Positions 9,681-59,420 of a DNA stretch of 64,000 bases are shown here, one piece after another. Location of the stretch: assembly GCA_026874595.1 (NCBI GenBank), contig CM049317.1, positions 27,434,401 to 27,498,400 on the forward strand, read 5' to 3'. The notes beneath the pieces are model-generated. The model worked only from the letters and a program-made list of their open reading frames with translations, was not told the origin of the DNA and ran no database searches. Positions within the stretch are counted from its first letter, which is position 1; each line of letters begins with the position of its first letter. Origin of the DNA: Sipunculus nudus. Taxonomy: Eukaryota; Annelida; Sipuncula; Golfingiida; Sipunculidae. The position numbers and the translations under genes are program-made.

Positions 9681-10020
9681 TCAATATACGAGACTATCTG
9701 AACCCGAGTCATCATCTACATAATTATCATCTACAGAGCATGAGCTTAACTTGCATACGTTAACGCGTAGGTTCTCCGATGTTGGAGGTGAAATATCTCT
9801 CACTGCCCGACGGTGAGCCTCACGTTTGTCCATTCCAAGTTCTACCAACGGTTCTGAGAATGCCAGCATACTTCCCAGCTGACTCATTGTTGAATAGACA
9901 CTTTCTGCACCACTCATGTCCGCATATATTTCTTCAATGTCGTCATAATTTGTCACCATGGAAACTTGTCGGTGAAAATGGAACGTGAAGTCGTTTGTAG
10001 GATGAGGAATGTTACCACGA
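9681..10020 (-). CDS. Gene A cytoplasmic tail exon with two YxxM motifs
   Basis: This last coding exon (112 residues) follows the phase-2 TM exon and ends DSLVY-stop. It contains IYADMSG and [10 protein letters not shown], two YxxM motifs twelve residues apart. Phosphorylated YxxM is the established binding site for the SH2 domains of the PI3-kinase p85 subunit (as in CD28, CD19, DAP10). A Ser/Asp-rich end (DDDSGSDS) follows. Copy B keeps the frame open with both motifs, and gene C has the same block as YMDMSG and IYSTMSQFGS. The signalling role is inference from the motif. An AATAAA on the minus strand at 9653-9658 is only about 23 bp beyond the stop, so the true polyadenylation site is uncertain. 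Confidence 0.8.
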
Positions 10021-13000
10021 CTGTGTACAAAGAGATAGAAACGTACTTTAGTGTCTGGGTAAATTACACAACAGTCCTATAATTTTAACGCTTCATAGCA
10101 AATGACTTCTCAGGAATCGTACTCTCGCAGAAATATAAATATATAAATAAATAAAGATATATGAAATGGTACATAATTATTTTTCGTTTTCATGTGGCAT
10201 TCTGCTCTATTAGGTATACAATTCTGGAGAAAGGTTTTGGTTCACAGTTAATGTAGTGTATCTAAAACATACCTGGCTGACCTATATCTACGGCACACCA
10301 TGACACAGAAGAATGTTATGACAAATATGAATAAAACAGCGATTCTAGTGAGTTTTAGCACATCCTTCATTTTTCTTGGCACTGTAAAAGAAAGGAGATT
10401 CATCTGTGCCCATATTATTTTGATAATTATCTCTTTTAAGTATATATATATTTTACACATATGTAAGAAGGAGTTTGTATAAGACTTTTTGTTGACACTT
10501 TCGCTGCCTATGACGAGTATACTCGTCATATTTTGTGAATATCCCAGTGCCTATGACGGGTATACTCGTCATGTATTTATCGGCAATTTTCTGTAAAAAA
10601 TCTCTTAAATTTATCAATAAACATCGTAGATGAGTAGAAGTTCATTTATCAATTCGTTTTGTGTCATGACATTGAATAGTTTGTAATTACTCAGTGTGCC
10701 TGATTTCTTAAAAGAAGGAAAGGTGTGGGTAGCGTGATAACATCCACGGCTCCCGTCCTTTGCCGTGAAATAAGTTCATGACCCGCTGTAGTGTAAAATT
10801 GATTCCGTGAAGGAGTATTTCTTAGGATCAAACGAAAGCGAGGACCGCAAAAAGTGTCTAGTTTTATATTTGGGCATATTTTGGCCACGTACTTTCTGCA
10901 AACCCACTGGTGAGACTGAGGTGTGACATATCGCACCTTAGGTGTGAACTCGAGATAGCGAGGCGTGAGGTGGTCCAGGTTTATTGCCCCGCGAGGACAG
11001 GGTATTGCACAATCAACAACAATAGGGCGCGTGTGTCATGCCTGACACACAGATAGGCAGTGTAAACAGAACGCGGCTGCAGATTATTGGTTTAGCTTAT
11101 TTGGAGTTATTTCACGTATCCTATATATCTGTAGAAAGAAATGCATGTGTAAGTACCTTCGCCAACAAGTGTTTATACATTGTAATATTCTGAAAGCAAA
11201 CTCGGACGATCACTTGCGGAACATGATGACCCTTAAGTATACCGGAAATCCCAACTGCCTTCTGGAATTTACCATAGGCAGACCCGACGTATGACTTTCA
11301 GACAACTCATAATATAGTATTATATCATAAGCCGTAGAGTTGGTCATAATAGATTACACTTTGATCAATCGCAATTTTTGTATGATTCCCGGCTTCTTTT
11401 GACGGTAACAACCACGAGGTCCATTGAATCATGTTATCGCCTTGGTATGTAAATATATGTAACCCTATGACTGTGTGCAATATAAGAAGATACAATTATT
11501 TTTAATTATATTGAATGCTAAAATAAGTTTATTCGTAATTGAAAGGAAAAAAAAAGTGATTTTTTCAGTAAAAATTCGATCCTGCGCGGGTTTCCTCTGC
11601 GTATTTATTGACCTATAACATAACTCCTTTGCCATCTTTCCACACGTGTAAATGGTAAGTTTATAGCAACCATAAACTAGAACGAGACACAAACCCTCGC
11701 TTATTCTACCAGATCGATAAAGTGACATTTGAAATTTGATGATCATACATGATTATGACTCCATCTCTCCATTTATTATTTCCATTAATATATCATGGTC
11801 GATCAAAGTGTGTACAGGAGCCGCTATTGCCTGAACCGCTGGACTTTCCCGAATCTGGTGTAAACATATATTCTCTCTCTCTCTTTCTGTATATATATAT
11901 ATATATATATATATATATATATATATATATATATATATGTATATATATATATATATATATATATATATATATATATATATATATATTTATTTGTGCATGT
12001 GAACGCGCGTATCTGTTTTTGTTTGCGCTTGTTTCCTTTGAAGTCTTTACTGGCTGTAGGCCTAATTAGCTAATTATGTCGAACAGGGTTATGCCATCCT
12101 TCTGTGCATAACATCTCTGGTAGGTTTTATGGCCTTTGGACCAGGTGGACTTCACACCCTCGTTATTAGCATTTCACACCTAGAACTAACTCAAACGGAC
12201 CTCCCAAAGACTGTTGCAGGGGGAATATTTGGCTGGACAGCGAATGTGTTAAAATGCTCCACTTTCTTAAGATTTTTCCGGTGGTAGCTCCCTGGCGACG
12301 CTACAGAGCTCACATTTTTTCGCAAGGGTCCGTGATAGGCAGATGGCACTGAATTCGGTACCCATCCGCAATGCTGAGGGAACATGAGCACACTTTTGGC
12401 TGAGACCCTGCTTATGGGTCGCCGCGAACAAGTGATAGGCTTCGGGAATCGAGCCAATTTCCGTTTGATTACAAGTGCGGCACCTTTGCCATTACGCAAC
12501 AATGCTCCACAGTGGATAAACGCTATGTAGTTGACACAAAAAATACAGTTAAGGTGATATCCTCGGTTTTTTCATATATCTAGTTAATGGTTTTCCTTGA
12601 AAGAATATAATTTCTCAATAATAAAACATGGTTACAATGGTCCTGTTTCTATAACCAACAGAGCCTCTCCTGGAGTAAAAATGGTAATGAGGGGGTTTTG
12701 CTCATCATGCGCACATATATAATTGTGCTTCTTTATTGTCTGAAGTCTATTCTTAATGTCTATTCTTAAGCTTGCTTAATTTTATAAAAGTACTGATTTA
12801 TTCCGGCACTATTTTTATGTTATTGGGTAAAATGAATTTTTATACTGCCCTGTTTTTGCAAGTAGAAATTTAAATTTATTTCTGTAAATATTGTCGTTAA
12901 GGGTTCTTACTTTCAGCATGTTTGTTGTATGTTCCAGTCACACTTTCTGGTTCATATTCTATATGATTTAAAAGTGAAAGATAAAAATAACAAGAGTGAT

Positions 13001-59000: not shown

Positions 59001-59420
59001 TAATTGGTGTTCTGTTGTATTCGTTGTACCGAGGAATAGTAAATAATTTAAAGACGCAACACGTCATTAATATATCAGAGCCAATCTCTGGGGTCTACCT
59101 TTTGTCTTCGGAGAAGTGCCGAATATCCAGTCATTGACCATCCTGTCTTAACATAACTAATGGGTCATTATGGGCTACTATCAAGGGCTACACAACAAAA
59201 AATAGGCTACATTCTAGTAGTAAAAGTGTTAGACCTTCATATAGAATAATTGTTTTCTTCGATAATAATGTTATGAATCCTTACCTTTTTTCATGTGTGA
59301 CATTTTAGAGCCCATGCTTTCTGTAACTATCATATTTGTATACCATATTAGATTTAAACTGCATATTTGACAGATTTGGTATGGTATCATACAGTTGTCA
59401 CCAAGCCTTTGGATAGCCAT
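55711..59420 (-). CDS. Gene D: tandem C-type-lectin-like receptor with a tyrosine-rich tail
   Basis: Minus-strand exons: 58297-58476 and 57904-58023 (CTLD1), 57178-57402 and 56840-56971 (CTLD2), 56541-56588 (stalk), 56346-56445 (TM), 55711-56065 (tail). All are in the family phases. A candidate first exon, 59285-59420, is open for 45 codons with a phase-1 donor. With it the product is 431 residues. That exon (MAIQRLGDNCMIPYQICQIC and onward) is not a convincing signal peptide, so the true start may lie further upstream. CTLD1: AFASRMCREKGRTLAIP, ETWLNI, WFW, CASV, ATDC, YIC. CTLD2: SSCRVRKASL, LWIGL, WKW, EKCVI, PVNC, YVC. No EPN or WND. TM: LLISFAIGAIFIVISIVAVL. Sequons occur in SNTT, VNET and INET. 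Most diverged of the three full-length genes. Confidence 0.76.
58741..58776. other. Perfect 16-bp hairpin in gene D intron 1
   Basis: CAAAAAGAAATGTAAA and its exact reverse complement are separated by the four-base loop TGGT. Flanks do not extend the stem. Too short for a microRNA precursor; possibly a foldback remnant. Confidence 0.7.

Follow-up and report, generated by a model that had tools for sequence, protein, structure and literature searches.

Does this locus of Sipunculus nudus encode a family of lectin-like surface receptors whose own tails recruit PI3-kinase, and is that family expanding? The original prediction was an array of five type I receptors (A to E), each with two CTLDs and a conserved YxxM block in the tail, signalling directly to PI3-kinase and multiplying by duplication. 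The DNA analysed, referred to here as the window, is a stretch of 64,000 nt from contig CM049317.1 (C12; bases 27434401-27498400) of assembly GCA_026874595.1 (1,426,538,692 bases), and all numbering follows window positions. The flanks were read for 100 kb on either side of the window and for 40 kb further on the right. A tblastn search with A, C and D detected no family member at E 0.01 or better in the 100 kb to the left, nor at E 0.1 or better in 164001-204000 in window numbering. Searches of the window with Rfam and ARAGORN gave no match, and a search of viral contigs with C gave no pattern match.

Gene structures and ectodomains

A six-frame scan recovered the five YxDMS sites of A to E and three YSTM sites (in A, B and C) at the positions originally reported, all of them on the minus strand. 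The exon structures around these sites (Table 1) give plausible receptors in three of the five cases, namely A, C and D; B is a pseudogene and E a remnant, so that the predicted array of five two-CTLD receptors holds for three. The tail of E differs from that of D by indels and a stop, and no CTLD exon was found for E either by tblastn or with an A/C/D profile run over all window ORFs of at least 15 aa.

Table 1. Features of the receptor cluster, given in window positions
Feature	Position	Strand	Remarks
Gene A	9681..15296	(-)	complete 397-aa ORF: signal peptide, two CTLDs, TM, tail; AG/GT borders, matching phases
A exon 1, signal peptide	15296-15209	(-)	
A exons, CTLD1	14936-14769 + 14448-14338	(-)	
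A exons, CTLD2	13984-13754 + 13433-13287	(-)	
A TM exon	10381-10273	(-)	
A tail exon	10020-9681	(-)	
A YxDMS site	9912-9926	(-)	six-frame scan
A motif pair YADMSG / YSTMSQ	9879..9926	(-)	Tyr-Tyr spacing 10
B, tandem copy of A, pseudogene	24951..29890	(-)	outer limits approximate
B YxDMS site	25167-25181	(-)	six-frame scan
Gene C	31999..39274	(-)	complete 418-aa ORF: signal peptide, two CTLDs, TM, tail; AG/GT borders, matching phases
C exon 1, signal peptide	39274-39187	(-)	
C exons, CTLD1	37174-37004 + 36449-36333	(-)	
C exons, CTLD2	35966-35733 + 35568-35419	(-)	
C TM exon	32799-32691	(-)	
C tail exon	32386-31999	(-)	
C YxDMS site	32278-32292	(-)	six-frame scan
C motif pair YMDMSG / YSTMSQ	32242..32292	(-)	Tyr-Tyr spacing 11, as PDGFR-beta Y740/Y751
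E, remnant	47265..48018	(-)	stalk exon 48018-47980, TM exon 47818-47719, tail 47460-47265
E YxDMS site	47382-47396	(-)	six-frame scan; YTDMSG, then early stop
Gene D	55711..58476	(-)	open for 385 aa through CTLDs, TM, tail; first exon not settled; AG/GT borders, matching phases
D exons, CTLD1	58476-58297 + 58023-57904	(-)	
D exons, CTLD2	57402-57178 + 56971-56840	(-)	
D stalk exon	56588-56541	(-)	extra relative to A/C plan
D TM exon	56445-56346	(-)	
D tail exon	56065-55711	(-)	
D motif YIDMSG, sole YxxM	55960..55977 (YxDMS 55963-55977)	(-)	
D tail Tyr-rich C-terminus	55711..55857	(-)	upper limit approximate; YYDRGEG..EEYNYASPEY

In A, C and D, two exons encode each CTLD. Intron positions and phases agree across the three genes, also at the tail exon, in support of a shared origin of the tails. 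Over the parts aligned by BLASTP the proteins are 44% (A and C), 32% (C and D) and 26% (A and D) identical, and we regard them as old paralogues. In A and C, an N-terminal hydrophobic signal exon is followed by the CTLDs, the TM and the tail, an order that is not that of a type II protein, and the type I orientation claimed for the family holds for both. An ORF starting at 59420, which has a good donor and is present in D2 (a copy of D described below) as well, was considered as the start of D but was not adopted as it would make a poor signal peptide. A, C and D, together with D2, are predicted to code for single-pass surface receptors of type I, their two CTLDs lacking the usual calcium/sugar motifs.

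The CTLD assignment was confirmed by profile, with Pfam Lectin_C above its cut-off in A (7.5e-11, residues 146-246), C (2e-12, residues 149-250) and D (5.3e-12, in two stretches). CTLD2 exceeds the cut-off in all three; CTLD1 on its own passes in D only, with A at 0.11, below the cut-off, and C giving no match. The four core cysteines of each CTLD are kept in C and D, and A is short of one in CTLD2 that the other two retain. A search of residues 1-250 in A, C and D found none of the triplets EPN, QPD, QPS, QPN, WND and WNS, in agreement with the predicted absence of sugar-binding motifs. The description of the domains as compact and NK-type was not borne out: with a family profile, CTLD2 aligned at approximately full length with CTLDs of mannose receptor 1 and langerin, the best relatives of solved structure. 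NKG2D chains were among the weaker structure matches, over part of the domain, and CTLD1 of C had a weak match to a KLRC1 chain (E 0.043). The fold is best described as that of an ordinary CTLD without calcium motifs, not specially NK-like.

The best 19-residue TM stretch has no charge in C and D and one Arg near its outer end in A, and the TM of E, judged by reading, has no charge; the charge-free TM of the original prediction is accordingly found in C, D and E and not in A. As the TM of both C and D is uncharged, neither shows a sign of a segment that pairs with an adaptor.

Duplication and loss in the cluster

B is about 94% identical to A in the main aligned blocks and is a young copy of it. 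Its start codon and signal peptide have gone with a 32-bp deletion, most of exon 2 is deleted (also visible as a gap between aligned blocks), and exon 3 has gained two stops and lost its donor. The tail frame is still open and includes both YADMSG and YSTMSQ.

The whole unit is tandemly repeated to the right of the window, with approximately -22 to 64 kb matching 64 to 142 kb. Most blocks common to the two units have an identity of 88-96%, and the outermost have 84%. The second unit consists of A2, C2, D2 and E2, one open and three broken. A2 has a 1-bp deletion in exon 4, a stop replaces Trp 188 in C2, and in E2 frameshifted C-like CTLD exons adjoin an E-like tail with a stop. The listed exons of D2 are open and share 96.8-98.5% DNA identity with D. 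Over both units, four copies out of nine (A, C, D and D2) have open frames, as far as these were read.

The two units may represent two haplotypes misplaced in tandem by the assembly. However, in two of the three comparable blocks B, which lies within the first unit, resembles A2 more closely than A (95.6 vs 94.3% and 96.2 vs 93.8%), the third giving 94.0% for B-A2 and 94.8% for B-A. This suggests repeated tandem copying or exchange. Constraint in the young pairs is weak, with dN/dS of 0.59 for C/C2, 0.51 for D/D2 (0.79 in the tail) and 0.74 for the A/B tail, values that are based on few changes and involve two broken copies, C2 and B. Duplication in the cluster has been accompanied by heavy loss, in a rapid turnover from which an immune or self-recognition role might be guessed. 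Duplication and a constrained tail block were found as predicted, but with two of the five window copies dead or fragmentary the picture of an expanding family is weakened.

Other repeated sequences were seen in and around the cluster. A sequence of about 1 kb, with approximately 81-84% identity between copies, is located in introns of A and B, between these genes and in the left flank (10492-11557, 20050-21126, 25751-26811 and -27192 to -26134), and is probably a mobile element. The first intron of C contains an inverted-repeat pair that is 92% identical (37303-37974 and 38437-39106) and is apparently an insertion, since the first intron of C2 is only about 0.2 kb. A non-coding stretch of about 5 kb is duplicated within the window (1464-6167 and 48193-53172) with 74-81% identity, a sign of older duplication in the same region. 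A reverse-transcriptase fragment (RVT_1, 5.8e-22) lies at 604-1095 (-).

Elsewhere in the genome, Lectin_C gave dozens of matches with near-equal scores, in open frames of approximately 360-382 aa on many contigs. This scatter may reflect a mobile element with CTLD genes as cargo, one place having been examined. There, in bases 29982001-29992000 of contig C7, three consecutive Lectin_C ORFs lie within 10 kb (799-2616 (+) and 3115-8976 (-)), two of them 94-96% alike in their longest repeats, together with one ORF that has a CARD domain and another with MULE-transposase and FLYWCH domains. On the contig of the cluster, two further Lectin_C sites encode CTLDs that resemble the A/C/D family only weakly.

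Constraint on the tail motif

Each of the nine tails read (A to E and the four second-unit copies), several of which are young copies, has YxDMSG, with A, T, M or I as the variable residue. Met at +3 is invariant in them and also in the five YSTM copies read; D, D2, E and E2 have one YxxM of this kind each. Measured from one shared reference position after the TM, the motif Tyr is residue 40, 40 and 39 in A, C and D, respectively, and in an alignment of these three tails the Tyr with D-M-S-G makes up the only run of invariant residues.

The motif was also compared with shuffled tails. When the D tail was shuffled, a 5-of-6 match no more than 6 residues from the original position arose in 4 of 1000 trials against C and 6 of 1000 against A; matches anywhere in the tail arose in 30 of 300 trials against C and 24 of 300 against A. 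The count of YxxM alone was unusual only for A (shuffle fractions of 0.019 for A, 0.061 for C and 0.39 for D), and a YxxM pair at the observed spacing was seen in 76 of 100,000 shuffled tails for A and 182 of 100,000 for C.

The strongest evidence for a real motif comes, in our view, from the comparison of A and C at the codon level. In the core that runs from YxDMSG to YSTMSQ, 13 of 16 ungapped residues are identical and dN is 0.11, an estimate that is rough because the core is short, at a distance where synonymous sites are saturated (pS 0.75). The value of dN is 0.55 in the tail before the conserved block (7 of 25 residues identical), 0.62 in the distal tail beyond it (17 of 55) and 0.36 in the ectodomain (114 of 218). 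This comparison also bears on the reading that the cluster is decaying, with little present function and a motif that is inherited and not maintained. The broken state of B, E and three second-unit copies, the high identity of most blocks of the two units, the dN/dS of 0.5-0.8 in young pairs and the Cys missing from A would fit such a history, but A, C and D diverged long ago, their core in A and C has been kept to the point of synonymous saturation and four copies are still open as far as read, and we consider it very unlikely.

The tails of A, C and D contain 6, 10 and 12 tyrosines, respectively, and might serve as a general tyrosine scaffold for other SH2/PTB proteins, with YxxM one of several sites and PI3-kinase not the main output. 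The Tyr-rich C-terminus shared by D and E is strongly constrained (dN 0.047 and dS 0.685 over 49 codons, dN/dS approximately 0.07), so YxDMSG is not the sole working part of the tail, and we regard the C-terminus as a second working element that was kept before E broke. Between A and C, however, no part of the tail is better kept than the YxxM core, while the distal tail diverges, and a scaffold of this kind seems improbable as the principal function.

Proposed PI3-kinase docking and known systems

The gene anatomy, the family relationship, the constraint on YxDMSG(..YSTM) and the repeated duplication with loss are results at the level of sequence. For the function of the tail, direct docking of PI3-kinase is the reading that we favour, with a probability of roughly 0.6. 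Ligand-driven clustering would lead to phosphorylation of the YxxM tyrosine or tyrosines by a tyrosine kinase, and p85 of class IA PI3-kinase would then dock on phospho-YxxM via its SH2 domains. As A, C and D are without a kinase domain, another kinase would have to phosphorylate the tail. In A and C, both p85 SH2 domains could occupy the pair of sites spaced by 10-11 residues, as they do on PDGFR-beta, and in D docking would be at one site. Two-site docking is, for A and C, the most specific testable form of this proposal.

According to PMC7247818, both SH2 domains of p85 recognise pY-X-X-M, and the Met at +3 agrees with this consensus, as the original prediction of a p85 site had it. The block in C also resembles a known site: a doubly phosphorylated mouse PDGFR-beta peptide, YMDMSKDESIDYVPM, is described in another report as used to stimulate PI3-kinase (PMC11750134). 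The corresponding YMDMSGSESCIYSTM of C is identical to it at 9 of 15 residues with equal Tyr-Tyr spacing, in a comparison that was chosen after seeing the sequence. Given the four Tyr/Met residues and the spacing, draws from the composition of the C tail reach such identity about 5 times in 10,000, a figure that shares the post hoc nature of the comparison. A 31-residue stretch of the C tail gave no match to solved structures. Ala or Thr at +1, as found in A, E and A2, is not the residue preferred by p85.

The main rival to PI3-kinase docking is that YxDM and YSTM are YxxPhi endocytic signals for the mu2 subunit of AP-2, in uptake receptors for which PI3-kinase is absent or secondary. A Tyr with a bulky hydrophobic residue at +3, where Met is permitted, fits YxxPhi, as does a single chain with a lectin-like ectodomain and the motif at a distance of approximately 40 residues from the membrane. 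If AP-2 were its only reader, however, the motif could have come to have Leu, Ile, Val or Phe at this position, and the strict Met in all copies read counts against such a role; the conserved D-M-S-G and the spaced pair also look like a p85 site. The YVKM of CTLA-4 serves both AP-2 and PI3-kinase. An endocytic signal with little or no part for PI3-kinase is, in our assessment, unlikely, but it is the alternative to be taken most seriously.

If PI3-kinase docking is correct, one of the closest parallels would be NKG2D/DAP10, which likewise joins a lectin-like ectodomain without sugar motifs to a YxxM output to PI3-kinase, here predicted. NKG2D is a type II protein with one CTLD, and its adaptor is paired with it through TM charge. 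The receptors described here have two CTLDs, are type I and carry the YxxM in their own tail, and a single chain would thus combine roles that are split between NKG2D and DAP10. The separate adaptor, DAP10, carries the YxxM that leads to PI3-kinase, as stated in PMC8971283. The p85 site in the kinase insert of PDGFR-beta shares the pattern YMDMS..ES..Y..M and the Tyr spacing of 11 with gene C, but PDGFR-beta is a receptor tyrosine kinase and the family here is not. Co-stimulatory receptors of the CD28/ICOS/CTLA-4 type are type I chains with an intrinsic YxxM, as here, and differ in having an Ig ectodomain in place of two CTLDs. The mannose receptor is a type I protein with several CTLDs, and its family and langerin are the structural relatives of CTLD2 noted above; they differ from the present receptors, which have two CTLDs only, no detected calcium/sugar triplets and a long Tyr-rich tail.

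Transmembrane and multi-CTLD lectins are tabulated in a survey of molluscan C-type lectins (PMC10140915), from the text of which the words ITIM and cytoplasmic are absent, so no tail motif is described there. In word searches of the open-access literature, on which the view of the family as undescribed depends, no work combining C-type lectin, YxxM and mollusc was found, and with invertebrate as the term only a paper on Venus-flytrap receptor kinases was listed. The family is a putative CTLD receptor with YxxM output, uncommon in the way that it combines topology, domains and tail.

It is possible, though we put it forward tentatively and with some doubt, that a lineage outside the NKG2D/DAP10 and CD28 systems evolved self-contained lectin-like co-stimulatory receptors, with two sugar-blind CTLDs and a PDGFR-like bidentate p85 site, that expand and decay by tandem segmental duplication in the manner of vertebrate NK receptor clusters. 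The C tail is a defined peptide on which p85 binding can be tested immediately. If this reading is true, direct recruitment of PI3-kinase by lectin-like receptors arose apart from vertebrate NKG2D/DAP10 and CD28, the setting being a cluster that turns over by birth and death, as is typical for immune receptors.
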